Assembly (NCBI GenBank): GCA_020853175.1
Contig: JADYZK010000087.1
Coordinates: 1-10,975 of the forward strand
DNA: 10,975 nt
Source: Bacteroidales bacterium
Lineage (GTDB): Bacteria > Bacteroidota > Bacteroidia > Bacteroidales > F082
Direction of reading: 5' to 3'
This document shows, one piece after another, positions 1 through 10,847 of this stretch. Position numbers and translations under genes: made by a program. A model generated the notes under the pieces. The model worked only from the letters and a program-made list of their open reading frames with translations, was not told where the DNA came from and made no database searches. Every line of letters starts with the position of its first letter. Positions within the stretch are counted from its first letter, which is position 1.

Positions 1-1058
1 CCAGCATGAGCGATCAAAACTGGCAAAATCTAACGAATGAAAATATTCGGGTCATCTATAGCCACGACGTGATCAGTTTTGCCCGTCAAAAAGGTTATTT
101 CGATGGAAATGATGCTGATTTCAGCTTCAGCGATGTGTATGCACCGCTCGATTTTAGTGCTGTACGCTTTTGCGAATTGCGAGTTTGGAGCATGTTCAAT
201 CATGTGAACGACGAGATGGATGCCTATTGGGAGTATGCCACCGGCAAAGAAAATACACAACGGATGCCTTTGTTTATAAAACCCAACCGAAAGCTCACGC
301 CACAAGACCTGATGTCGTTTAAGCGCGATTATCTGCAAGGAACCGACCTCGATATGTCGAAAGATGCGGGTGCAGGTCCTTTTGGATTGCCCTACCGTTG
401 GAGGCCGCTCACTTGGAAAACCGATGATAAGGAATATTTTCACGAAAGGGTTACAGCAACGCAACAAACCGGTTTTTCATTTATCGCTCAAATGCGGTCG
501 TGGTTGCCCAACGCCATTGGCGGCATTTTTTGGATGGGTGTTGACGATGCAGGCACAAGCGTTTATGTTCCTTTTTACAGCTCCATCACGCGGGTCCCAC
601 AATCGTGGTCGGAAGGCTATGGCGACATCCTTATCTACGAAGAAAATGCAGCTTTTTGGGTGTTCAACCGCGTGGCTCATTTTGCTTACCTTTTCTACAA
701 TAGGGTGATGCCCGATATTCAAAATGTACAACAAGAATTGGAAAATAAATTCCGCGATTACACTCCGGCCGTAGATGCCGCAGCCCTCAAGCTCTATGAA
801 AACGATCCTGCCGTAGCCGTTGCTTTTCTTACCGATTATAGCGCCAATATGGGCGACTATACAGTGAAAAGATGGAAAGAGTTGAATGAATTTTTACTTG
901 TTAAGTACTTGGATGGTAATGTAAAACAAGAAAAAGACGGACGTTTTTTAAGGAATCCTTACGGCTATCCCGAGCCACCAAAATTTCCGGGTTATGATGA
1001 AAGTTTCAAGAAAAATCTCCTCAATCAAACGGGAGATCAGTTTTTGATGCCGAACTAA
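1..1058 (+). CDS. C69-family dipeptidase, C-terminal part (5' end outside window)
   Basis: Peptidase family C69 (PepD-type) enzymes are N-terminal-nucleophile hydrolases that cut dipeptides; many Bacteroidota members carry a signal peptide and act in the periplasm. The visible ~351 residues match my memory of the C-terminal two thirds of this family almost end to end: DVISFARQKGYF, YAPLDFSAVRFCELRVWS, GAGPFGLPYRWRPLTW, ATQQTGFSFIAQMRSWLP, GVDDA, ITRVP, AFWVFNRVA, FLTDYS, and a C-terminal VKYLDGNVK. The reading frame is open to the window edge and the first Met (base 6) falls in mid-domain, so it is not the start. Family members are usually about 530-560 residues, so roughly 200 residues are missing here, including the N-terminal nucleophile Cys. 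Stop TAA at 1056-1058, followed at once by a terminator. The gene converges with the giant minus-strand gene and appears unrelated to it. Confidence 0.88.
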   Translation, partial: SMSDQNWQNLTNENIRVIYSHDVISFARQKGYFDGNDADFSFSDVYAPLDFSAVRFCELRVWSMFNHVNDEMDAYWEYATGKENTQRMPLFIKPNRKLTPQDLMSFKRDYLQGTDLDMSKDAGAGPFGLPYRWRPLTWKTDDKEYFHERVTATQQTGFSFIAQMRSWLPNAIGGIFWMGVDDAGTSVYVPFYSSITRVPQSWSEGYGDILIYEENAAFWVFNRVAHFAYLFYNRVMPDIQNVQQELENKFRDYTPAVDAAALKLYENDPAVAVAFLTDYSANMGDYTVKRWKELNEFLLVKYLDGNVKQEKDGRFLRNPYGYPEPPKFPGYDESFKKNLLNQTGDQFLMPN

Positions 1059-1072
1059 AAACAAATTTTTCG

Positions 1073-1118
1073 AAATAAAAAAAGCCGCTTCATTTTTTTG
1101 AAGCGGCTTTTTTTATTT
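1073..1118. terminator. Bidirectional intrinsic terminator between convergent genes
   Basis: The core stem AAAGCCGCTTCA (1081-1092) pairs perfectly with TGAAGCGGCTTT (1099-1110) around a six-T loop. Flanking A and T runs extend the pairing out to about 1073-1118, giving a U-tract on either strand. It lies 14 bp after the dipeptidase stop and 8 bp after the stop of the minus-strand 2006-aa gene, so it can serve both transcripts. Confidence 0.92.
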
Positions 1119-1126
1119 CACACCAA

Positions 1127-4100
1127 TTATGGATTGGGTTGTGCAGGAACTTGATAAATCAGGCTTTGGTTGCGGTATCCCGTGAGGTTTTTATACCAGT
1201 CGGGGAACTGAACTCCACCACTTGTTGCCCATTCGGCAAACTTGAGGTGAGCCCAAATGATCTCTTGTTTTTCCTGAGGATAATCAAACTTTTCATAGAT
1301 GTTAATGGCCCAAGGTAAATTGGTGTCAGTAACATAATATCTATTGCTGGCCGGATTGCTGTTGTCTTCATACTGACCAAACAACGCTGGATTAACTAGG
1401 TCGGTTGGTGGGTAATAAGGTAAATGCACTTCGTGGCTGCGAACTTTATTGACAATCAAGAAAGGATTGAAGTTGCTTATATCCAAATCAGAGATTGAAT
1501 AAGTGTTGGGTTTTAGCACAATGTTAATGACCACAGTATCCGGAGTAACATAAGGTGCTCCTGGGGTGGTGTTCACACCAATTCCGATGCCCGGGTGTTC
1601 CATTTGTTTGAAGGCGTTGTCATATACAATGATGGTAGGTTTGGATTGACCGGTTTCGGTTCCGTTACCTTCGAGGCTAATGAAATTCTCGCTGAGCTCG
1701 TATCCGGTAACTGTAAGGTCGCTGCTGTTGATAGCTCCATTGAGTTGGAATCCGAATCCGTTTTCATAAGAGGCTCCAAAAGCCTTAATGATGAAGGTTC
1801 CTGTTACTTTTTCAACTTTGTTGTAAGCATTGATCACTACTTTGAACTGATAATCCAACACAAGGTCGTTGAAATCATAGTCGCCTTTGCCGGGCCACAA
1901 ATCTTCAAAAGCTAAGGTTCCAAAACCGGTGGCAGGATATAAAATATCAGCACCTGGAACAACTGTTATTGTTATTGTGGCAATATCGCATAAGTTGTTC
2001 AAATCACACACTTGGTAGTTGATGGTAGCGGGTCCAGTGAAGCCGAGTGCGGGGGTAAAAGTAACCACACCTGTAGCAGGATCAACAGTAAAGACGCCCA
2101 CCGTAGATGGATTGGGTGCGGTAGCCGCGATGAGTGTTACAGTAGTTGGGTTCAAGGCAGCATCGCCGATTTGATCGTTCGATAACACCATGATATCAAC
2201 AGGAGTGTTGGCAAGGGTTGAGGCATTGTCATTGATGGCGTCGGGGCCTACTAAAGCAACAGGAGTGATGGTTGCGGTTGAAGTGTTGTTTTCTTCCACA
2301 GGATCAGTTTCGTTGCCGTCAATGGTAGCTGTGTTGGCATAAGGACCGTCAGCTTTCACTTTAGCTTTCAGGATTAATGTTGCACTGGCGTCTTTAGCTA
2401 AGTTGCCAATTGTCCAAGTGGGTGCTGCCCAAGTTCCGACGGAAGTCGTGGCACTAACAAATGTATAACCTACTGGCAGAGCGTCAGTTACCTTCACAAG
2501 GGTGGCATTGCTGAGGCCGTAGTTGGTGGCAGTAATGGTGAAAGTTACGGTATCATTTACTTTTGGAGTTGTAACGTCAATGGTTTTTAGCACACCAAGG
2601 TCAGCAGAGGCTGCAGGTCCGGGAGTAATTGTACTGGTATTGTTGTCAGTGTTAGGATCTGTTTGGTCACCGCTGATGGTGGCTGTGTTGGCATACGGTC
2701 CGGTTACATTTACTTTGGCAATCATAATCAAAGTAGCTGTGTTTCCTGAATTCAAGTTGCCGATGGTCCAGTTGGGCGAAGCCCACGTTCCTGTTGATGT
2801 GGTGGCACTTACATAGGCATAACCTTCGGGTAGCAGGTCAACAACTTTCACGTTGGTGGCATTGCTGGGGCCTATGTTTGAAGCCGTGAGGGTAAATGTG
2901 ACATTGTTTCCTACTGTAGGAGTTGCATTGTCAACGGTTTTAACGATAGAGAGGTCTGCAGAAGACACCGGGACACAGGTAGCTGAATTGCTATTGTTTC
3001 CCATATTGGGATCGGTTTCACTTCCCGAAATGGTAGCAGTGTTCACATAAGATCCGCTGGCGTTTACTTTGGCTACAATGTTCAAGGTGGCACTTGCGCC
3101 ATTGGCCAAATTGCCGATGGTCCAGTTGGGAGCCGTCCAATTTGCTGTTGAAGGACTAAAGCTTACGAAAGTGTATCCCGCAGGTAAAATATCATTTACC
3201 TTCACATTGGTGGCTGAGCTCGGGCCATTGTTGGTGGCAGTAATCGTAAAGGTTACATTGTTGCCAACGGTAGGTGTTTCGTTGCTCACTGTTTTTTCAA
3301 CGCTAAGGTCGGCCGCCGCTGATGGTCCCGGAGTTACTGTACTCGTGTTGTTTCCAGCAATGGGATCATTGGTAGTAGTGGTGATGGTTGCGGTGTTGGT
3401 GTAAGAACCTGTCGCCTTCACTTTGGCTTCAATGGTAAGCGTTTTGGTGTCGCCATTGTTTAAGGTTCCGATTGTCCAATTGGGTGCTGCCCATGTTCCA
3501 GAAGAAGGATTAGCATTTACAAAGGTGTAACCTGACGGCAAAACATCGTTCACTACCACATTGGCTGCATTGCTTGGGCCGTTGTTGGTGGCTGTGAGCG
3601 TAAAAATTACATTGTTTCCAACGGATGGATTGTTGTTGTTCACCGATTTCACAATGGCCACATCAGCCGATGCTGCCGGAACGGGTGTAACAGTGCTGGT
3701 GTTGTTGGCATTATTGGGGTCTGAGGTAGTTCCGCTGATGGTGGCCGTATTAGCATAACTTCCGGTAGCCAAAACGGTTGCCACAATATTTAAAGTAACG
3801 GTAGCACCATTGGCCAAGTTGCCAATGGTCCAATTGGGAGCAGTCCAAGAGCCTGATGGTGATGCACTCACAAAGGCATATCCTGAGGGTAAAACATCGT
3901 TGACGTTTACGCCGGTGGCAGCGCTGGGACCATTATTTTTGGCTGTTAAGGTGAAAGTAACATTGGTTCCCACAGCAGGTGCGGCATTGCTAACGGTTTT
4001 AATAACTGAAAGATCAGCCTTAGCAACAGGAACACAAGTTACCGCTGAGGTATTGTTTGCGGTATTAGGATCAGGTTGTTGACCGGAAATGGTTGCAGTG

Positions 4101-7100
4101 TTCACATAAGGTCCGGCGGCGTTAACCATGGCTGTGATGGACAAAGTAGCGGTAGCATTAAAAGCAAGGTTACCGATGCTCCAATTGGGTGAGGTCCATG
4201 TTCCGGCACTTGCAGTTGCACCGGTGAGGGTGAATCCTGCGGGTAAAACATCGTTTACATTCACTCCAGTGGCGGCACTTGGGCCATTGTTTTTGGCAGT
4301 AATGGTAAAGGTTACTGTTGAACCAACGTCAGGAGTGGTATTGTTGACTGTTTTTGTAACTTGTAAGTCAGCAACGGCTGAAGGCGTTACGGTAGCAGTG
4401 CTGCTGTTGTTGGTTGTAACCGGATCGGTTTGGTTGCCAGTGATGGTTGCCGTATTTTCATAACTTCCTGTAGCTTGAACTGTAGCAACAATACTCAAAG
4501 TAACAGTTGCATTATTGGCCAAGTTGCCAATTGTCCAGTTGGGAACAGACCATGAACCTGCTGAAGGTGTGGCACTTACAAAGCTATATCCTGATGGTAA
4601 AACATCGTTTACATTTACTCCGGTGGCTGCACTGGGGCCGTTATTTTTAGCCGTGAGGGTGAAGGTGACGTTTGTTCCAACACTGGGTGAGGCATTGTTG
4701 ACCGTCTTTGTAATGGAAAGATCAGCCGCACCAACAGGAACTGGAGTTACTGTGCTGCTGTTGTTGCCGGGTGTGGGGTCGGTTTGACCGCCACTAACTG
4801 TTGCCGTGTTGGCATAAGGGCCGGTAGCATTTACAGTAGCAACAATAGCAAGGGATGCTGTTCCGCCATTGGCCAAATTGCCGATTGTCCAATTGGGAGC
4901 AGTCCAAGAGCCTGATGGTGTTGCGCTCACAAAGGTATATCCAGCGGGTAATACGTCGTTGACTATTACTGCTGTTGCCGCGCTGGGACCATTATTAACA
5001 ACCGAAAGGGTAAATGTAACATTTGATCCCACAACAGGAGCAGCATTGCTCACTGTTTTGGTGATTGCAAGATCGGTAGCAGCTGTAGGCACAGGTGTGG
5101 AGGTGCTGCTGTTGTTAGTTGGCGTAGGGTCAGTTTGGTTTCCCGAAATGGTAGCCGTATTGGCATACACTCCGGTAGATTTAACAGTGGCAACAACGGT
5201 GAGTGTGGCACTGGCGTTGAGTGCCAAATTGCCAATGTTCCAATTGGGAGCACTCCAGGTGCCTGTTGAAGGTGTTGCGCTCACAAAAGTATATCCTGAA
5301 GGAAGATTGTCGACAACTTTCACCCCTGTGGCAGCTAATGGCCCGTTGTTGGTAGCAGTAATGGTAAAAGTAACATTGCTGCCTACAGCAGGAGTAGCAC
5401 TGCTGGCAGTTTTTACAACGGCTAAATCAGCTGCTGAAACCGGAACGGGTGTTACGGTACTGGAGTTGTTTCCTGGAGTAGGGTCTGTTAGAGTGCCGCT
5501 TATTGTAGCAGTATTGGCATAGTTCCCGGTTGTTTTTACAGTTGCAATAATAGCTAAGGTTGCTGAGGCTCCGTTAGCAAGGTTTCCAATGGTCCAGTTT
5601 GGAGCAGACCATGAACCAGTTGAAGGTGTTGCACTTACAAAGGTATAACCGGAGGGTAAAACATCATTTACAACAACACCTGTTGCATTGTTCTGTCCAT
5701 TGTTAGTTGCTGTAATCGTGAATGTTACATTCGTTCCAACAACAGGGGCTGAATTACTAACAGTCTTAACTACCATTAGGTCAGCCTGAGGAGGCATCAC
5801 AACTACAGTTTCTGATGAGATACTAAATCTACCGCAGTTATCAGTTACAACAACTGAAATAACACAATTAGTAAGGGTTGTTACACTTGGAGCCGTGTAG
5901 GTTGTACTTGAGCCAGTTGTGTTTGAAAATGATCCACCTGCACAAGAGCTTGACCAGAGGTAAGTATATGGACTATTTCCTCCTGTGACAGAAGCAGAAA
6001 GATTAAGTGTTGAACCAGAATATACAGTTTCTGGAATGTTGTTAGTAACTTCGATTTCTTTATTTACGCCAGCTAACAGAATAAAATTAAAGTAAGCCCT
6101 CATTGCAGCAATATTGGCGGCTGCAGTCCCATCATGATCATGACCAGCTTCATACATTACCATACCATAATTTGAATTGCCATATGCATGACCATAAGCA
6201 ACAACAGCAGCTTCATTAGGGTCTGCCTGACTATGAGAAGGTTGATAAACAGCTACACTTGTGGTAGGGCGCCAGTCACTTGTACCTTTGTATGGAATAT
6301 AAATTTGTTCCGATCCATTGGTAGTTGCAGCATTGAGTGTGCCCATAAATTGCATAATAGGATCCCCGGCATATGATGGATTGTAAACATAAGATGCTGG
6401 TGTACCATCATTGTGACTTCCCCATGGTATTAATCCGTTGGTTGATAAGTACTTAAATCCAAGGTAGGTGGGGGTATTTGCCTCAAGTGCACTTACAGCA
6501 TGACAGGCTGCCCACAAGTATCCACCGCTTTTGATATAGTTATCCAATGCCGTTTTCCAACTGCTTACCCATTGATGTGGGTCGGCATGGGGTAAAACAT
6601 AAATATCGTCGCAGCCATCGAGCATTGTTGGATTTCCGGCAAGTGTGTAGGATGATGTAGGGATTTCGGCACGAGTGTAATAATCTTTAACAATGTTTCC
6701 GTTATCCTCATCAAGAACGGCATTTGGCCAACTCGATAATTCTTTATAAACCGGCGCAGTAAAGCTGGTATTGATAGGTCCATCAACAACTACACCTTTT
6801 GATTTCCAGGTATTAATTTTGGCTAAAACAGTGGCGTTAATATACTCTGCAGGAATAATGAACGATCCGCCCTTATAATCTTTGGAATTCACTGTAAAGT
6901 CAACACCGTCTTTAACTTTGGAGGGATTAATTGCCCAGCGTACTGGTACCTGATGGTCTTTAAGCAATGTATAAACCAGACCATATGGTTTTAGTCCTTT
7001 TGCTACTGTTTGAGAGGACTGCCCCATATCAATGATATATGCGCCACTAATAAAGGTTTCATTTTGAGCAGTTACGCTTTCAATGAGCAACGTCATCAGA

Positions 7101-7147
7101 ACCATCAAGAAGCTGGTTCTAAAAATGGAACGTAGGTTATTTTTCAT
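1127..7147 (-). CDS. Giant secreted protein: GATase1-like domain, 10 DUF11 repeats, LruC C-terminus
   Basis: This 2006-residue protein has a Sec signal peptide (residues 1-27, probable cut after VTA). Residues ~30-362 look like a class I glutamine-amidotransferase/ThuA-like fold: an opening GAYIIDMG-type strand, a nucleophile-elbow-like segment YLWAACHAVSALE with Cys215 and His216, and YEAGHDHDG with His336 and His338. Residues ~363-453 are a PKD/Ig-like domain, 455-1632 are ten DUF11 repeats, and 1634-~1730 are an Ig/cadherin-like domain (VLSND, FTPALGFTG, INYQVCD). The C-terminal ~270 residues are an LruC domain (DUF4842), recognised by its acidic motif FEDLWPGKGDYDFNDLVLDY at 1747-1766. 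No type IX sorting domain or membrane anchor is evident. Start at 7147, 28 bp after the lipoprotein stop at 7176, so the two are probably co-transcribed. Likely a cell-surface or secreted adhesin-like protein; function is inferred, and whether the N-terminal domain is catalytic is unknown. Confidence 0.9.
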   Translation of the reverse strand: MKNNLRSIFRTSFLMVLMTLLIESVTAQNETFISGAYIIDMGQSSQTVAKGLKPYGLVYTLLKDHQVPVRWAINPSKVKDGVDFTVNSKDYKGGSFIIPAEYINATVLAKINTWKSKGVVVDGPINTSFTAPVYKELSSWPNAVLDEDNGNIVKDYYTRAEIPTSSYTLAGNPTMLDGCDDIYVLPHADPHQWVSSWKTALDNYIKSGGYLWAACHAVSALEANTPTYLGFKYLSTNGLIPWGSHNDGTPASYVYNPSYAGDPIMQFMGTLNAATTNGSEQIYIPYKGTSDWRPTTSVAVYQPSHSQADPNEAAVVAYGHAYGNSNYGMVMYEAGHDHDGTAAANIAAMRAYFNFILLAGVNKEIEVTNNIPETVYSGSTLNLSASVTGGNSPYTYLWSSSCAGGSFSNTTGSSTTYTAPSVTTLTNCVISVVVTDNCGRFSISSETVVVMPPQADLMVVKTVSNSAPVVGTNVTFTITATNNGQNNATGVVVNDVLPSGYTFVSATPSTGSWSAPNWTIGNLANGASATLAIIATVKTTGNYANTATISGTLTDPTPGNNSSTVTPVPVSAADLAVVKTASSATPAVGSNVTFTITATNNGPLAATGVKVVDNLPSGYTFVSATPSTGTWSAPNWNIGNLALNASATLTVVATVKSTGVYANTATISGNQTDPTPTNNSSTSTPVPTAATDLAITKTVSNAAPVVGSNVTFTLSVVNNGPSAATAVIVNDVLPAGYTFVSATPSGSWTAPNWTIGNLANGGTASLAIVATVNATGPYANTATVSGGQTDPTPGNNSSTVTPVPVGAADLSITKTVNNASPSVGTNVTFTLTAKNNGPSAATGVNVNDVLPSGYSFVSATPSAGSWSVPNWTIGNLANNATVTLSIVATVQATGSYENTATITGNQTDPVTTNNSSTATVTPSAVADLQVTKTVNNTTPDVGSTVTFTITAKNNGPSAATGVNVNDVLPAGFTLTGATASAGTWTSPNWSIGNLAFNATATLSITAMVNAAGPYVNTATISGQQPDPNTANNTSAVTCVPVAKADLSVIKTVSNAAPAVGTNVTFTLTAKNNGPSAATGVNVNDVLPSGYAFVSASPSGSWTAPNWTIGNLANGATVTLNIVATVLATGSYANTATISGTTSDPNNANNTSTVTPVPAASADVAIVKSVNNNNPSVGNNVIFTLTATNNGPSNAANVVVNDVLPSGYTFVNANPSSGTWAAPNWTIGTLNNGDTKTLTIEAKVKATGSYTNTATITTTTNDPIAGNNTSTVTPGPSAAADLSVEKTVSNETPTVGNNVTFTITATNNGPSSATNVKVNDILPAGYTFVSFSPSTANWTAPNWTIGNLANGASATLNIVAKVNASGSYVNTATISGSETDPNMGNNSNSATCVPVSSADLSIVKTVDNATPTVGNNVTFTLTASNIGPSNATNVKVVDLLPEGYAYVSATTSTGTWASPNWTIGNLNSGNTATLIMIAKVNVTGPYANTATISGDQTDPNTDNNTSTITPGPAASADLGVLKTIDVTTPKVNDTVTFTITATNYGLSNATLVKVTDALPVGYTFVSATTSVGTWAAPTWTIGNLAKDASATLILKAKVKADGPYANTATIDGNETDPVEENNTSTATITPVALVGPDAINDNASTLANTPVDIMVLSNDQIGDAALNPTTVTLIAATAPNPSTVGVFTVDPATGVVTFTPALGFTGPATINYQVCDLNNLCDIATITITVVPGADILYPATGFGTLAFEDLWPGKGDYDFNDLVLDYQFKVVINAYNKVEKVTGTFIIKAFGASYENGFGFQLNGAINSSDLTVTGYELSENFISLEGNGTETGQSKPTIIVYDNAFKQMEHPGIGIGVNTTPGAPYVTPDTVVINIVLKPNTYSISDLDISNFNPFLIVNKVRSHEVHLPYYPPTDLVNPALFGQYEDNSNPASNRYYVTDTNLPWAINIYEKFDYPQEKQEIIWAHLKFAEWATSGGVQFPDWYKNLTGYRNQSLIYQVPAQPNP
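2249..5785 (-). repeat. Ten tandem DUF11 repeats (117-118 aa, ~354 nt each) inside the giant protein
   Basis: Repeats begin at residues 455, 573, 691, 808, 926, 1044, 1161, 1279, 1397 and 1515, each opening with an [AT]D[LV]xxxK[TS] motif and carrying NNGPSxAT, DxLPxG[YF], PxWxIGxL, GxYxNTATI and DPxxxNN. Lengths are 117 (third and sixth) or 118 residues with no larger indels. DUF11 is a beta-sandwich module common in bacterial and archaeal surface proteins, where tandem arrays act as a stalk. The uniform length and high similarity also at DNA level suggest recent tandem duplication. Several long open frames on the plus strand here are by-products of the repeats. Confidence 0.93.
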
Positions 7148-7175: not shown

Positions 7176-7529
7176 TTATTGAAACCTGTAGGATAAGTTT
7201 TCACCTGTTAATTCAAGCGTAACATCTTTACCAGCAAATAACAAGCGGATATTTTGTTCATAAGCAGGTACTGTAATTTTCATCATATAAGCCAGATTAG
7301 TCGAAAGATATGCTTTTTGGTAAGGTATGCCATCCTGGTTTGCTACAATTGCAATTCCTGAAGATGATCCTGTAAGCTCCAGTTGAAAACTTTTTGTAGT
7401 TTTCCAGTTAAAGTTGTCTGGTACAACCAATTCTTCCATTTTATCAGGGGTTGTGTCTGGCTGTGGCGTGTCTTTTCTGCATGAGAAAAAAACAACCGAT
7501 AGAATAATAAAGATAAATAAATTTTTCAT
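7176..7529 (-). CDS. Small lipoprotein of the local paralogous family (copy A)
   Basis: A 117-residue lipoprotein with signal segment MKNLFIFIILSVVFFSC: lipid-attachment Cys17 after VFFS, then RKD. The mature part has a Pro/Asp/Thr linker, the family core KMEELVVPDNFNWKTTKSF, then YQKAYLSTNLAYMMKI and VPAYEQ, predicted all-beta and about 85 residues. The frame is open to an ATG at 7556, but copies C and D both start with a Met three residues or fewer before the hydrophobic stretch, so I chose the Met at 7529; 7535 (MTMKN) is also possible. It is first in a two-gene unit with the giant LruC protein 28 bp downstream. I do not recognise a named Pfam family. From memory, some Bacteroidota LruC proteins carry a similar F-N/D-W/F-x-T-T segment at their own lipidated N-terminus, so this may be a split-off equivalent (inference). 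Confidence 0.85.
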   Translation of the reverse strand: MKNLFIFIILSVVFFSCRKDTPQPDTTPDKMEELVVPDNFNWKTTKSFQLELTGSSSGIAIVANQDGIPYQKAYLSTNLAYMMKITVPAYEQNIRLLFAGKDVTLELTGENLSYRFQ

Positions 7530-7702
7530 AGTCATGTTTTTTTTAATAGTTACCATAAATTATGCCTGCTTATCTTTAGTATTATAAATCAGTTATTTGC
7601 ATAATTATTTGAAAATATTTTTTGTTTAAAAAATCTCATTTTTAGACAAATAATTTTGTTTTTAGAATGATTTCTAATTATTTAACAATTCTCAAGAATA
7701 TT
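7530..7702. other. Very AT-rich intergenic stretch, probable promoter region of the copy A operon
   Basis: This is a strongly AT-rich gap between the 171-aa gene and lipoprotein copy A, with long A and T runs and no convincing ORF. It is where a promoter for the copy A plus giant-gene operon should lie. I found no exact TAnnTTTG (the Bacteroidota -7 consensus) with a properly spaced upstream box, so no promoter is called. No GC-rich terminator for the 171-aa gene is visible. Confidence 0.45.
7662..7677. promoter_or_regulatory. Small dyad TTAGAA-N4-TTCTAA upstream of copy A
   Basis: A perfect 6-bp inverted repeat with a 4-bp spacer, centred about 140 bp upstream of the chosen copy A start. 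It shares the GAA-N4-TTC core with the longer palindromes upstream of copies C and D, at similar distances (125 and 120 bp). In DNA this AT-rich a dyad of this size can arise by chance, so a regulatory role is only a suggestion. Confidence 0.22.
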
Positions 7703-8218
7703 TTAATAAATTTTACTCCATCCAAGGTCGTCAGTATCACTTTTGAATAGTTGAAAAAAATGCTCGGGATTTTTAATCGCTGATCTGTCAAAGGTCTCAA
7801 AGTGAATAATACCACCACAAACATGACCGTCATTCTGATACATATTGCCTATATGATCAATGGCTAGTGTCATGTCACCAATATTTGAATCTTTATGTGA
7901 TGAAAAACTAACAAAATATATCCAGGTTGCTTTATTAAGCTGAAGAAACCCTTCACCAATTACTCTGATTGATTTTTTAATCGTTTGATCATCAATTTCT
8001 GTTTCTTTCAACTCCAGAACTGCAGTTTGATCGTTTGGCTTAAAGGCCTTTAACGTTTGAATTATTTCATTCTTTTTAATCTCACGTTGCTTGTAATCTA
8101 GCTTATGAGCATTATCATGTTGACCAAAACCAATTTTCCAACTTCCAACAAGAAGAATCATTATGATAATAAATCCTGTCGTTTTTGATGCTAATTTAAA
8201 TGATGGGTAAAGGCTCAT
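7703..8218 (-). CDS. Secreted protein of unknown function, 171 aa
   Basis: I do not recognise this protein. Residues ~14-33 form a hydrophobic segment (TTGFIIIMILLVGSWKIGFG) followed by Gln, which reads as a signal peptide with a likely cut before Q33; a retained N-terminal anchor is possible. The mature ~138 residues are soluble and mixed, with a Lys/Glu-rich stretch (YKQREIKKNEIIQTLKAF), then alternating strands, and a single Cys in NDGHVCGGIIHFETF. No catalytic motif is evident. Its start codon lies 11 bp after the stop of the broken lipoprotein copy B, mirroring the 28- and 30-bp gaps between copies A and C and their partners, so it is probably the original partner of copy B. With the upstream lipoprotein disrupted it would now depend on read-through from the copy C operon or a promoter of its own. 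Confidence 0.75.
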   Translation of the reverse strand: MSLYPSFKLASKTTGFIIIMILLVGSWKIGFGQHDNAHKLDYKQREIKKNEIIQTLKAFKPNDQTAVLELKETEIDDQTIKKSIRVIGEGFLQLNKATWIYFVSFSSHKDSNIGDMTLAIDHIGNMYQNDGHVCGGIIHFETFDRSAIKNPEHFFQLFKSDTDDLGWSKIY

Positions 8219-8229
8219 GGTATTCAGAT

Positions 8230-8457
8230 TTAAAACTGTATTGTTGCTGCAAGTGATGTAAGTTCAATCGTTTTTTGCTCACCATTGAATTTAACAATCA
8301 CAATTTTTTCGTAAGCTGGAACAGTGAGTTTCATTGTATAGGCTTGTCCGGTAGACAGATAGGCCTTTTGGTAAGATATGCCGGAGGTGTTATTTACTTC
8401 AGCAATACCATTTGAATTGGCGCTAAGAGTCAGACTGTAATCCTTTGTAGTTTTCCA
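8230..8457 (-). pseudogene. 3' remnant of lipoprotein copy B
   Basis: Reading the minus strand from 8457, a 75-codon open stretch starts at WKTTKDYSLTL and runs through YQKAYLSTGQAYTMKLTVPA and YEK to a TAA at 8230-8232. It aligns colinearly with residues 45 to the end of copies C and D, ending within a residue or two of them. The first ~44 codons (signal peptide, lipobox, linker and MEEL-VP-xFN) are absent, and the codon directly upstream in this frame is TGA (8458-8460). It overlaps the 3' end of the 300-aa gene, which runs through it in another frame. It cannot make a lipoprotein as it stands. The retained frame with no internal stops suggests recent truncation. Confidence 0.88.
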
Positions 8458-9332
8458 TCATAAAGGTCATTGTCAAGAACATTGTTCACTGCTGTTCCGC
8501 CTGTGCTGCTGTTCACGGGTGTTCCCACGTCATCAATAGCAACAGGAAGCGGGTTGTTTACAATCACTGGATTGGAAAACACACCTCCTGCAATGCCAAT
8601 TTGAACGGAATAGAAACGTTCGTCGTTTTTACCGCTTTGTCCCAAAGCAAATGAGATTTTATTGTTTGCATTCAGGTAGTTGGCAATAAAGGCGGCACTG
8701 TTGTCAAAAGTTACGCCATTTAGGCTGTAGCTGATGCCATAAAACTTGGTTCTTCCTGTGGAATTGTTCGTGCTAACAGTGAGACCTGTTGGGTTATTCA
8801 CAGCGTATGAAGTATAGCCTCCCACTTCAACATATTCTCTGTTGTCGCCGTTACCATCAATGTCAATGGCAGTAAGGTTGTAGTTGAACACGAATACGGA
8901 TTCGTTGTCAGCCGTATTAAAAAACTCTAACTCATATACTACGTATCCTCCGCTGTTCTTTGTAGCTCCTATCCGCGGTTGAAAACGTGTTGATTCGCCG
9001 GTTATGGCATCGTCATCGAAGTTGGTAATATTGGCATTCACTTTTTCTGCAATCTTCATTAAAGCATACACCACAATACCATCTTTGGTGATTACATTGC
9101 TGTATTTATGCACTGATCCGGCGTTGGTGCCGCCGTTGCCGGTATTGGTAACAATGGTGCGTTGCGCATTGGTAAAACTCAAAGTTTCACCTTGAAGGTT
9201 GAGGATAAAAGAGGACTGCGCCCTAAGGTTCATTCCGGAAAAAAGCATAACAGTCAACAAGAGTACTGAAGCCAAAAGAGAACTTTTGAACTTTTTGTCT
9301 TGATGAAATTGTTCAATTTTTTGTGTTTTCAT
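8430..9332 (-). CDS. Secreted Ig-domain protein, truncated at its 3' end by fusion into copy B
   Basis: This 300-residue frame has a signal peptide with a long charged n-region (residues 1-38, cut after LRA before QSS). Residues ~40-265 form a beta-rich N-terminal module with a calcium-binding-like loop DIDGNGDNRE at 157-166. From about 268 an Ig-like domain opens with PLPVAIDD and NVLDNDL (284-290), the same family of module as the Ig-like domain near the end of the giant protein. That domain normally needs about 80 more residues, but the frame stops 10 residues after NVLDNDL. The last eight residues (GKLQRITV) are encoded by DNA that in another frame encodes WKTTKDY of lipoprotein copy B. 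The original protein was therefore probably much longer. Start 9332 lies 30 bp after the stop of lipoprotein copy C, so they form an operon. Whether the truncated product is stable or exported is unknown. Confidence 0.8.
   Translation of the reverse strand: MKTQKIEQFHQDKKFKSSLLASVLLLTVMLFSGMNLRAQSSFILNLQGETLSFTNAQRTIVTNTGNGGTNAGSVHKYSNVITKDGIVVYALMKIAEKVNANITNFDDDAITGESTRFQPRIGATKNSGGYVVYELEFFNTADNESVFVFNYNLTAIDIDGNGDNREYVEVGGYTSYAVNNPTGLTVSTNNSTGRTKFYGISYSLNGVTFDNSAAFIANYLNANNKISFALGQSGKNDERFYSVQIGIAGGVFSNPVIVNNPLPVAIDDVGTPVNSSTGGTAVNNVLDNDLYDGKLQRITV
8454..8462. other. Probable deletion (or misassembly) junction
   Basis: On the minus strand, the reading frame of the Ig-domain protein (GAC CTT TAT GAT) meets lipoprotein sequence (TGG AAA ACT ACA AAG G) at about 8457-8460. 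Homology to the lipoprotein family begins exactly at the Trp codon, and the preceding TGA replaces the conserved Asn codon. The join links the middle of a large gene to the middle of the next module's lipoprotein gene, as expected when the DNA between them is lost. Confidence 0.75.
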
Positions 9333-9362
9333 TTCAGTTTATTTTTTTTGGTTTGATTCGAT

Positions 9363-9725
9363 TTATGGAAGGTCAACAGACATGCTGGTGGCAGTGAGGT
9401 TCAGCACTGTAGTTTGACCCCCAAATTTTAAAATAACACTCTTTTCATAAGATGGAACGACAACCTTCATTGTATAAGGTATCCCGGCTGTGAGATAGGC
9501 TTTTTGATAGGTGGCGCCATTGGCGTTGTTCACCTCCACTATTCCATTTGCGGTGGCGGTGAGGGTTAAGCTGAAATCAGAAGTGGTTTTCCAATTGAAG
9601 CTGGCGGGAACCTGCAGTTCCTCCATGGTAGTTGGTTTGTTGTCAGGTTGTTGAGGCGTATCCTTTTTACAAGAACTCATGAACAAAATGAATCCGAGTG
9701 CGATCAGTAAGGTGGTCTTTTTCAT
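9363..9725 (-). CDS. Small lipoprotein of the local paralogous family (copy C)
   Basis: A 120-residue lipoprotein. The signal segment MKKTTLLIALGFILFMSSC puts the lipidated Cys at residue 19, followed by KKD. A short PQQPDNKP linker precedes the core: MEELQVPASFNWKTT (34-48), a central YQKAYL (73-78) and VPSYEK (90-95). Hand alignment to copy D gives about 60% identity over the full 120 residues with no gaps. A Lys-Asp pair just after the lipidated Cys is compatible with outer-membrane or surface display in Bacteroidota, but it is weaker than the acidic export signals known from Capnocytophaga and Bacteroides. The truncated 300-aa secreted protein starts 30 bp downstream. The upstream region shares a palindromic element with copy D. 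Function unknown; anchoring or assembly of the partner is inference. Confidence 0.92.
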   Translation of the reverse strand: MKKTTLLIALGFILFMSSCKKDTPQQPDNKPTTMEELQVPASFNWKTTSDFSLTLTATANGIVEVNNANGATYQKAYLTAGIPYTMKVVVPSYEKSVILKFGGQTTVLNLTATSMSVDLP

Positions 9726-9844
9726 TGTAATTATATTTTCAATTTGGTTAATTCTAATATCGTGCCAAAAAATGAAAAGAACTTAAAATGCTGATAGATA
9801 AATAGTTATAAAAATACTTGAAAATAAAACGCGCGTTTAAAATC

Positions 9845-9868
9845 GGAATTAATTCCAAAAATCGGACA
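9845..9868. promoter_or_regulatory. Shared palindromic element upstream of copy C
   Basis: GGAATTAATTCC (9845-9856) is a perfect 12-bp palindrome followed by AAAAATCGGACA. The 24-bp block matches 20 of 24 positions of the block at 10824-10847 upstream of copy D, in the same orientation. Its palindrome is centred about 125 bp upstream of the copy C start. It could be an operator or activator site for the lipoprotein operons. Sequence conservation is seen; function is inferred. Confidence 0.5.
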
Positions 9869-10223
9869 AAAATCTATCGTAACGAAACCTTTCATGAATA
9901 CTCTTTAATAGTTGTAACATCACGATCATTGGGGGAAGGGTAGCTTTTTTTAGACTTTAAAGGAGTTTTTCTTGGTGATGTTGAATAAACTGCACACAAA
10001 TGTAACTATAAGTTAGACACTTATGACAACATTATAAGTTTTTATTTGCTGTTGCAATCAAAAGGTTTAAAAATGCCATCATTACAAGCGGCGACGCATT
10101 TAAGGTTTCTATCATTTTTTGTGCTGTAAGAGGTGATGGGTATAGGAAGACCATTTCTATATGGTGGTGAGCAGAAATGGGGGAAAAGATTTTTGTCGTT
10201 TTGCAGAAGGGCAAAAACGACAA
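9869..10223. other. Stretch with no confident gene; possible decayed partner of copy D
   Basis: Between the copy C upstream region and the copy D terminator I see no gene I can support. Minus-strand frames of 65-67 codons at 10032-10239 begin inside the terminator hairpin and lack recognisable motifs. A weak AT-only inverted repeat (ACTTAT at 10019-10024, ATAAGT at 10034-10039) and one copy of a short repeat (10046-10083) are present. By analogy with copies A and C, this is where a partner for copy D would be expected, so the stretch may be a scar left by its loss. Confidence 0.4.
10046..10083. repeat. Degenerate short direct repeat, copy 1
   Basis: TTGCTGTTGCAATCA at 10046-10060 and GCCATCATT at 10075-10083, separated by 14 nt. 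The same two blocks recur at 10273-10297 with a 1-nt gap. The 13-nt length difference is not a multiple of three, so if the repeat came from coding DNA one copy is frameshifted. Confidence 0.5.
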
Positions 10224-10255
10224 CACCCGAAGCATTCATTTAAATGCTTCGGGTG
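10224..10255 (-). terminator. Intrinsic terminator downstream of lipoprotein copy D
   Basis: CACCCGAAGCATT (10224-10236) pairs perfectly with AATGCTTCGGGTG (10243-10255) around a 6-nt loop. Read on the minus strand, the 13-bp stem is followed by TTGTCGTTTTTGCCC, a short U-tract. It lies about 92 bp after the copy D stop, and no other credible gene lies between, so it probably ends the copy D transcript. On the plus strand the T run is further away (10265-10270). Confidence 0.75.
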
Positions 10256-10272
10256 CAACATATTCTTTTTAA

Positions 10273-10297
10273 TTGCTGTTTCAATCAGGCCATCATT
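10273..10297. repeat. Degenerate short direct repeat, copy 2
   Basis: TTGCTGTTTCAATCA (10273-10287) matches 14 of 15 bases of the block at 10046-10060 and is followed one base later by GCCATCATT (10289-10297), also found in copy 1. On the minus strand this reads as KNDGLIETAIKKN in one frame, which may be the tail of a lost coding sequence. It lies between the copy D stop and its terminator. Confidence 0.5.
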
Positions 10298-10347
10298 TTT
10301 ACCTACAACCAAGATCGAATATCAAGTGTAATAATCTTTTTCGAGGA

Positions 10348-10710
10348 TTAGTTGAATTGGTACTGCATAACATCGGCTGTCAATTCCAAATTTGCAGTTT
10401 GGCCGAGGAATCTCAGTTGAACAGTTTTTTCGTAACTGGGCACGGTCACCTTCATGGTGTAGGCTACACCGCTGCTGAGGTAAGCTTTTTGGTAAGCCAC
10501 ACCTGCTGAGTTAGTCACCTCAACCAATCCATTTGCATTTCCACTGAGGGTAAGGCTGATGTCTTTCGTGGTTTTCCAGTTAAAACTTGCCGGAATTTGC
10601 AGTTCTTCCATGGTGTTGGGTTTGCTGATAGGATCTTCTACCTTGTCTTTTTTACATGATGTAAATGCGAGTGCCAATCCTAGGGTCAGTAATAATGTGA
10701 TCTTTTTCAT
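10348..10710 (-). CDS. Small lipoprotein of the local paralogous family (copy D)
   Basis: A 120-residue lipoprotein with signal segment MKKITLLLTLGLALAFTSC (lipidated Cys19), then KKD and a KVEDPISKP linker. The family core follows: MEELQIPASFNWKTTKDISL, a central YQKAYLSSGVAYTMKV, and VPSYEK at 90-95. Same length as copy C and about 60% identical to it by hand count. The start is fixed by this alignment and by the n-region length. Unlike copies A and C it has no secreted partner close downstream: about 92 bp later comes a terminator, then DNA with no confident gene. It is either a stand-alone gene, perhaps serving partners encoded elsewhere, or the survivor of a broken module. Predicted all-beta and envelope-located; molecular function unknown. 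Confidence 0.9.
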   Translation of the reverse strand: MKKITLLLTLGLALAFTSCKKDKVEDPISKPNTMEELQIPASFNWKTTKDISLTLSGNANGLVEVTNSAGVAYQKAYLSSGVAYTMKVTVPSYEKTVQLRFLGQTANLELTADVMQYQFN

Positions 10711-10747
10711 AATATTTTCGTTTTATCTACTTATTCCAAAATGATGC

Positions 10748-10755
10748 CAAACCTA
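10748..10755 (-). promoter_or_regulatory. Candidate -7 promoter box for copy D
   Basis: On the minus strand this reads TAGGTTTG, an exact match to the Bacteroidota -7 consensus TAnnTTTG, 37 bp upstream of the copy D ATG. No TTTG-type -33 box sits at the usual spacing upstream. The adjoining TTTGGCA is also present 37 bp or so upstream of copy C (9763-9769), though copy C lacks the TA of the box. Weak call. Confidence 0.3.
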
Positions 10756-10823: not shown

Positions 10824-10847
10824 GGAATTTATTCCAAAATATGGACA
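10824..10847. promoter_or_regulatory. Shared palindromic element upstream of copy D
   Basis: The block GGAATTTATTCCAAAATATGG plus ACA matches 20 of 24 positions upstream of copy C. Here the dyad extends to TTTGGAAT-N2-ATTCCAAA (10821-10838), an 8-bp inverted repeat. It is centred about 120 bp upstream of the copy D start, nearly the same place as in copy C. A half-site-like ATTCCAAAA also occurs at 10733-10741, close to the start. Confidence 0.5.

Follow-up and report, generated by a model that had tools for sequence, protein, structure and literature searches.

The LruC (DUF4842) domain is widespread among surface proteins and has no assigned function. In Leptospira, three proteins that share such domains, LruC, LIC20172 and LIC13086, are described as outer-membrane proteins, and LIC13086 combines a predicted lipid signal and DUF4842 in one chain (PMC8280789). 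Ice-binding proteins of polar bacteria carry a C-terminal DUF4842 behind a different N-terminal working domain, and the accessible sections of that source mention no separate lipoprotein (PMC9957290). BACOVA_00967 of Bacteroides ovatus (PDB 3oqq), a putative lipoprotein of 435 aa in which the LruC domain is recognised at E 8e-23, has no repeat region. The Bacteroidales locus analysed here is akin to all of these in its LruC domain, but differs from LIC13086 and BACOVA_00967 in that the lipidated N-terminal part, which we call the head, is a separate gene, and its partner has an ordinary signal peptide. Searches of the openly licensed literature on LruC/DUF4842 and BACOVA_00967/3OQQ found no description of the head or of such a split arrangement.

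The window, that is, the whole stretch of 10,975 nucleotides analysed, contains four copies of a small lipoprotein, A to D, with B a remnant, all on the minus strand (Table 1). A sequence-only reading had assigned them to one family, and both the positions and the likeness hold up: compared with copy A, the other copies are 45-53% identical (in the aligned part only), 27 alignment columns are invariant across all four, and the DNA is 62-73% identical over a 79-base stretch, so that the resemblance is not due to chance. The distances of 28 bp from A to the giant, 11 bp from B to the 171-aa ORF and 30 bp from C to the Ig-type ORF were also correctly given. The reading frame of copy A could begin at 7556. 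Copy B retains 75 aa, the initial ~45 being gone, and its intact counterpart, at 9998-10360 of the related locus L012, is 92% identical; the closest relatives of copy C are P0001-P0003.

Table 1. Coordinates of the head copies, their partners and the putative control elements in the window
Feature	Position	Strand	Description
Perfect 21-bp inverted repeat	1072..1119	.	between 3' ends of giant and convergent C69 peptidase gene
Giant	1127..7147	-	2006 aa; ordinary signal peptide, Big_9, C-terminal LruC domain
LruC/DUF4842 domain of giant	1190..1921	-	residues 1743-1986; TIGR04456 match
Copy A	7176..7529	-	stand-alone head lipoprotein, directly upstream of giant
171-aa gene	7703..8218	-	secreted protein in giant's operon
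Copy B	8230..8457	-	5'-truncated head; remnant 8457-8233 plus stop
Ig-type ORF, partner of C	8430..9332	-	3'-truncated LruC protein; signal peptide, Ig/Big_9-like end
Junction of C partner and middle of head B	8454..8464	-	shared ATGG, up to ATGGAAAAC
Copy C	9363..9725	-	stand-alone head lipoprotein, 120 aa
Sigma-54-like -24/-12 element before C	9753..9767	-	TGGCACGATATTAGA, 2 mismatches, 42 nt upstream
Palindrome upstream of C	9845..9856	-	GGAATTAATTCC; candidate activator site
Terminator-like hairpin after D	10223..10256	-	15 pairs; between D and head C
Copy D	10348..10710	-	stand-alone head lipoprotein, 120 aa
Sigma-54-like -24/-12 element before D	10735..10749	-	TGGCATCATTTTGGA, 3 mismatches, 39 nt upstream
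Palindrome upstream of D	10824..10835	-	GGAATAAATTCC; candidate activator site

The small lipoprotein has a lipobox followed by a domain that matches the N-terminus of fused LruC lipoproteins and, by sequence, is what LruC/DUF4842 proteins have as their N-terminal head, here encoded on its own. That it might belong to a known family with an unrelated role was not borne out: neither Pfam nor NCBIfam gave a match, nor did Pfam for 53 members, and the same searches found no LruC domain in it. The head is an unnamed protein family, which we define here. Searches that used stand-alone heads as seeds gave 80 distinct heads of this kind. For 69, an LruC gene comes next on the same strand, at a median gap of 20 bp, and for another four, the partner runs past the contig end; the anticipated preference for secreted, LruC-type neighbours is thus evident. 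DUF4842 was matched by Pfam in 62 of the 64 partners scanned, the five longest of the 69, with the window's giant among them, having been omitted for size. DUF11 is not the common link among partners, being present in 4 of these 64; the five omitted giants include DUF11 proteins. Looking for heads could reveal what anchors those giant secreted proteins for which annotation shows no anchor.

The converse sample comprised 62 of the 75 rows of one LruC search (all but the window's own and the 12 weakest) and all 32 rows outside the window's own genome from a second one; some genomes are common to the forward and converse samples. Once 12 cut ORFs and two fused ORFs open at the 5' end are set aside, 88 distinct LruC genes with intact starts are left, and iterated profiles, which contain fused heads, find a head for every one of them, 74 fused and 14 as the directly upstream gene; uniterated profiles find heads in 68 of the 88 with the signal peptide and in 52 without it. 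As raw counts, the first set gave 44 fused and 10 paired genes, 9 with a cut 5' end and 2 with none, and the second, which includes two left-over first-set rows, gave 28, 4, 3 and 2, respectively; in the four genes scored as having none, the iterated profile recognises a head (in three, also without the signal peptide). Judged by these profile matches, the head is present either in cis or in trans, in a complementary distribution across intact-start LruC genes. Most of the examined Bacteroidota LruC proteins carry the head at their own N-terminus, with a cysteine where the signal peptide ends; in this locus, as in dozens of relatives, the arrangement is split, with the head gene directly upstream and the LruC partner equipped with only an ordinary signal peptide.

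The description of the locus as a constant first gene followed by a variable second one is misleading, inasmuch as the second gene is constant in its C-terminal LruC domain and varies in the middle (Big_9, cadherin-like, CshA, SdrD_B, DUF11). Two things made the window appear variable: the truncation of one partner and the 171-aa gene, which is an extra in the operon and is found in 4 of 61 relatives' genomes, each with this type of giant. The giant, with ten DUF11 stretches, has an LruC domain (TIGR04456, 247 bits against a curated cut-off of 36; PF16130, 187 bits against 22). The LruC domain occupies the C-terminus, and a search of NCBIfam at E <= 1 found no type IX secretion C-terminal sorting domain of the TIGR04183/TIGR04131 type. 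The Ig-type ORF after copy C has no LruC-domain match in Pfam or NCBIfam, but nearly all of its residues 1-294 align at 50-73% identity with intact LruC-bearing proteins of 621-1830 aa; homology ends at residue 293-294, and the final residues are copy B read out of frame. By alignment, then, it is the LruC-less front of an LruC family member. Identity with L012 starts at ~8464, and the C partner was apparently joined to the middle of copy B by a deletion, misassembly being less likely. This deletion, which would have cut both the C partner and head B, probably brought the C promoter in front of the 171-aa gene, head A and the giant.

The reading that we favour, with a probability of about two in three, is that the head serves as a lipidated anchor subunit for LruC proteins, supplied in trans. 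The LruC protein would be exported by Sec and dock on the lipidated head, which would tether it to the outer membrane in the way that a fused head would in cis, with the middle repeats displayed as an adhesive or structural part; for the LruC domain, the pairing offers a testable role, namely, docking to a membrane anchor. The earlier proposal, that large surface proteins have an anchor or co-secretion subunit of their own, fits the pairing with LruC in 69 of 80 cases, but its chaperone variant fares less well, since the head is a permanent part of most LruC proteins examined. A role as a periplasmic chaperone or pilotin, acting transiently to assist folding or outer-membrane crossing and staying outside the mature structure, appears improbable for the small lipoprotein. 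In favour of it, the protein is small and lipidated, and the partner encoded directly downstream is often very large (28 of 69 exceed 832 aa, the maximum among fused proteins of the converse sample). Against it, the domain is covalently attached in 74 of 88 LruC proteins, a better fit to a structural role, and beyond that sample there are fused proteins in frames of 852-923 aa, so that a split is not dictated by size alone.

The N-terminal stretch of BACOVA_00967 is collinear with the head, one chain spanning both in the structural match, but the sequence similarity of head and BACOVA_00967 (1.9 bits) is far below significance, and because the whole-chain superposition of a fused model on 3oqq is poor (Foldseek TM 0.46, rmsd 10.8), it does not demonstrate a fixed arrangement of head and LruC domain. 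TssJ is a transthyretin-like outer-membrane lipoprotein of type VI secretion; its resemblance to the head is an analogy, with no sequence relation, another partner and another system, and fold resemblance of this kind is common.

A strict lipobox rule is passed by 72 of 80 stand-alone heads (that of copy D reads SCKKDKVE) and by none of the 69 partners. Fused heads are less clean, 49 of 74 passing, but in all 73 that the mature profile caught, a cysteine lies within residues 13-60. At the lipidated cysteine, the window copies read CRKDT, CKKDT and CKKDK. In Capnocytophaga canimorsus, surface export of lipoproteins requires, minimally, C-X-K-(D/E)2, with two acids after the lysine (PMC5080379). 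Most heads share the lysine at +3 and the acid at +4 (C-X-K-(D/E) in 57 of 76), but the window copies have one acid, both acids are found in 5 of 76, and two acids within +4 to +6 in 22 of 76; furthermore, in contrast to the Capnocytophaga lipoproteins, an unlipidated partner would need to be carried along. With the signal half present, the heads may face either the surface or the periplasm.

With respect to regulation, a sigma-54-like -24/-12 element (GG-N10-GC near the gene start, <= 3 mismatches, 30-95 nt upstream) precedes 59 of 85 heads, copies C and D included, compared to 30 of 450 other genes; the base after the -12 G, where C is expected, is A in 37 of 53 head elements and C in 6. RpoN is present in 14 of 15 genomes and was not found in the window's own, incomplete one. 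Sigma-54 control of the unit would imply that anchor and cargo are co-produced under particular conditions. A fuller scenario, which we put forward tentatively and consider rather unlikely to hold in all its parts, is that Bacteroidota display very large adhesins by means of a split anchor. The head would bind, in the periplasm, the C-terminal LruC domain of an otherwise soluble protein exported by Sec and take this protein along to the surface of the outer membrane; LruC would be a docking domain that acts mostly in cis and here in trans, within a sigma-54-switched regulon in which lone heads like D would be spare anchors. Alternatively, head and LruC protein could be merely co-regulated neighbours, the head acting alone, for example, as an envelope-stress lipoprotein. 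The same sigma-54-like promoter precedes htpG-like and small lipoprotein genes, and lone heads such as D would suit this possibility, but we give it little credence, given that repeated fusion and fission and the cis/trans complementarity would be difficult to account for if the two had no function in common. The LruC tree used is a quick one, with weak support on 52 of its 137 inner branches.

Heads and LruC domains are co-inherited as fixed pairs, not shuffled. Such co-inheritance could come from linkage alone. Least probable is a surface-variation locus, in which variable surface proteins would be recombined in and out beside a constant anchor gene: species within the genus and the family do vary in the number and order of modules (one to five heads per array), the lengths of orthologous giants are unequal (1912, 2006 and 2183 aa) and the window bears a recombination scar, but no recombinase-like gene is evident among its ORFs, all its modules share one orientation, the four copies are too divergent for recent exchange and, within the same genome, a head fits the LruC domain with which it is paired better than one assigned to it by re-pairing.

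Lone heads are not explained by a strict one-to-one anchor. For copy D, no LruC partner was found in the contig, the next gene, 622 bp further, being head C; likewise, the first head of the locus L018 is followed by another head. Copy D has its own promoter-like site and terminator-like hairpin, the hairpin scan overall giving no excess over shuffles (3 against 2.8). The inverted repeat beyond the giant is likely a terminator.

The small lipoprotein encoded four times in the window, whose other copies are 45-53% identical to copy A, is not covered by any Pfam or NCBIfam family, and the 53 members scanned against Pfam likewise lack a match. The genome to which the window belongs (84.7% complete, in 517 contigs, one of which is the entire window) encodes this domain two further times, in each case as the N-terminus, hereafter the head, of a full-length LruC protein; its other two LruC genes begin beyond the ends of their contigs. 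Across the order, matches at E <= 1e-10 occur in 34 of 393 genomes and fall into two classes of frames, short (~120-180 aa) and long (~440-920 aa). Given these fused copies and the two frame classes, the small lipoprotein is the free-standing form of the LruC protein head.

The converse search, from LruC to the head, examined 99 genomes from the order (24 matching) and 296 of the phylum (16 matching), with 62 of the 75 places in the order and all 32 in the phylum fetched together with upstream sequence. An iterated profile detects the head within 74 of the 88 distinct LruC ORFs whose start is intact, and the 14 that lack it are exactly those with a stand-alone head upstream. The first, uniterated profile recognized 68 of the 88 as fused, and a profile devoid of the signal peptide 73 after iteration and 52 before; in the control, the latter profile matched 1 of 474 non-LruC ORFs (>=200 aa), which turned out to be a cut fused LruC protein.

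The forward sample comprised all short-frame places from the head searches and 13 loci of named genome records (relatives that are uncultured, mostly Bacteroidales/Bacteroidetes), leaving 80 stand-alone heads once duplicates and weak matches were dropped. The next gene encodes a LruC protein in 69 of these, with a median gap of 20 bp (within 120 bp in 66 of the 69 pairs), so that the pairing with a secreted partner noticed in the sequence-only reading is real and general. In four cases, the next gene is cut by a contig end; among the remaining seven, three heads precede a gene for a 171/173-aa protein, with a LruC giant later in the same gene run, copy C has a truncated partner, copy D has none, one is a broken pair where LruC sequence follows farther downstream, and one is followed by another head. 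Pfam DUF4842 was found in 62 of the 64 partners scanned (the five longest of the 69 were left out), the middles of which contain Big_9 (23), cadherin-like (18 and 11), CshA (14), SdrD_B (5) and DUF11 (4) domains. Copy D stands alone: it has a promoter-like site and a terminator-like hairpin of its own, and no sign of a gene for a partner was found.

Features of the window and of related loci (L, loci of relatives)
Feature	Position	Strand	Remark
Palindrome GGAATNNATTCC	10824-10835		~125 nt before D
Sigma-54-like element	10735-10749		before D
Head D	10710-10348	-	first in transcription order
Terminator-like hairpin	10256-10223	-	between heads D and C
Palindrome GGAATNNATTCC	9845-9856		~131 nt before C
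Sigma-54-like element	9753-9767		before C
Head C	9725-9363	-
Secreted ORF after head C	9332-8430	-	300 codons
Head B	8457-8230	-	5'-truncated
Secreted ORF	8218-7703	-	171 codons
Head A	7529-7176	-
Secreted giant	7147-1127	-	2006 codons; ten DUF11 stretches, Big_9, C-terminal LruC/DUF4842 domain
N-terminal domain of giant	6023-7090		356 residues
DUF11 repeats	2301-5790		351-354 bp each
C69 peptidase gene end	6-1058		convergent with array; Pfam 123.6 bits, cut-off 23
171/173-aa protein gene	L174 9748-10263
171/173-aa protein gene	L176 15600-16121
171/173-aa protein gene	L181 13482-14003
C69-type peptidase-like gene	L176 268-2013		beside array
C69-type peptidase-like gene	L182 4988-6712		beside array
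C69-type peptidase-like gene	L189 10118-11848		beside array
C69-type peptidase-like gene	L190 4515-6251		beside array
Regulator-like protein	L178 2391-5000		divergent
Regulator-like protein	L182 10212-11999		divergent
Regulator-like protein	L179 2-1765		divergent

All genes of interest in the window lie on the minus strand. The partners there do differ, as had been noticed, but their apparent variability comes down to a single truncated LruC protein and a single additional gene of an operon. Residues 1-294 of the ORF after C align almost completely to intact LruC-bearing proteins of 621 to 1830 aa (50-73% identity), and the homology ends at residue 293-294; from position ~8464 onward, the window matches a relative's locus, L012, where head B is intact (92.9% over 1465 bases). 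Such a junction would follow from a deletion over a few shared bases that took with it the end of the C partner, whatever lay in between, and the initial 45 codons of B along with its promoter. The truncated protein was found in the window contig only, among the sequences examined, and therefore the junction may be either a strain-specific deletion or a misassembly.

The 171-aa gene is best regarded as an additional gene belonging to this giant. The genome of L012 (G395) and G398 share the order head, 171/173-aa gene, second head, giant, and G396 has head, 173-aa gene, giant. Four of the 61 relatives' genomes have this gene, and in each of them the giant has the same N-terminal domain. That domain matched no Pfam or NCBIfam entry and occurs in five of the 61, namely, these four and one more; the four belong to one genus and hence are not independent evidence. 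Orthologous giants are 1912, 2006 and 2183 aa long, so the number of DUF11 repeats may vary between species.

The head is most likely the lipidated anchor of LruC proteins, acting in cis in most of them and in trans in the window. A strict lipobox rule is passed by 72 of the 80 stand-alone heads compared to none of the 69 partners, and by 49 of 74 fused proteins; all 73 fused proteins found by the profile without the signal peptide have a cysteine within residues 13-60. Under a looser rule, 76 heads pass and 14 partners are flagged, in which the cysteine seems to lie within the mature part. Of the alternatives originally offered, that of an anchor or co-secretion subunit is the preferred one; the covalent attachment of the head in most of the family members examined favors a permanent structural role over that of a transient chaperone. 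The split arrangement represents a variant form of a known, uncharacterized kind of surface protein. Lysine occupies +3 in 74 of the 76 heads, and C-X-K-(D/E), found in 57, resembles the Capnocytophaga export signal (PMC5080379), although a second acid adjoins the first in only 5 of 76; the putative head-LruC complex may face the surface.

The fused or split state, mapped on a quick tree built from 140 LruC domains (72 fused, 68 split), changes at least 12 times, with five changes forced by well-supported branches, against ~47 with shuffled labels. Head and LruC distances correlate at 0.77 (62 pairs with a complete partner), a value never reached in 2000 trials of within-genome re-pairing (mean 0.70; 13 of 42 genomes have more than one pair), and hence the pairs are inherited as units, which fits joint function but also simple linkage.

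Heads share TTTGGCAYA-N4-TTTGA ~40-50 nt before the start codon. A search for the sigma-54-like TGGCAC-N5-TTGC, 30-95 nt upstream, at all head loci with enough upstream sequence recovered it, with <=3 mismatches, in 59 of 85 heads (opposite strand, 7 of 85), 6 of 87 LruC partners, 16 of 71 fused LruC genes and 30 of 450 other genes; with <=2, the counts are 38 heads (opposite strand, 1), 0, 7 and 9. The element precedes C, D and the intact B of L012 and was not found before head A, as expected were A part of an operon that starts with B. Its spacing fits sigma-54, but the -12 box reads GA in 37 of 53 cases versus GC in 6. In seven genomes of the genus, an exact form occurs 26 times (reversed pattern, 9), 13 within longer open frames and four before heads; others precede genes that we take, by recognizing their sequences, to be htpG-like (two species), Hsp20-like and small lipoprotein genes. 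A form with one extra base occurs 42 times (versus 10), never at a head array. The sigma-54 reading is supported by a survey that links HSP90, GrpE and GroES to sigma-54 in Bacteroidota (PMC12316311). Among the 15 genomes tested, 14 encode RpoN, which was not detected in the window's own, incomplete genome. With <=1 mismatch allowed, 8 of 31 heads of the genus, several from sister species among them, have the palindrome GGAATNNATTCC 105-181 nt upstream, versus 3 of 48 others (~0.036 expected per stretch); it is a candidate binding site for an activator.

The window and several relatives have a C69-type peptidase-like gene next to the array (in the relatives, judged from protein starts). Regulator-like proteins are divergently encoded beside head-LruC units at three loci, and both of those scanned contain response-regulator and PAS domains.
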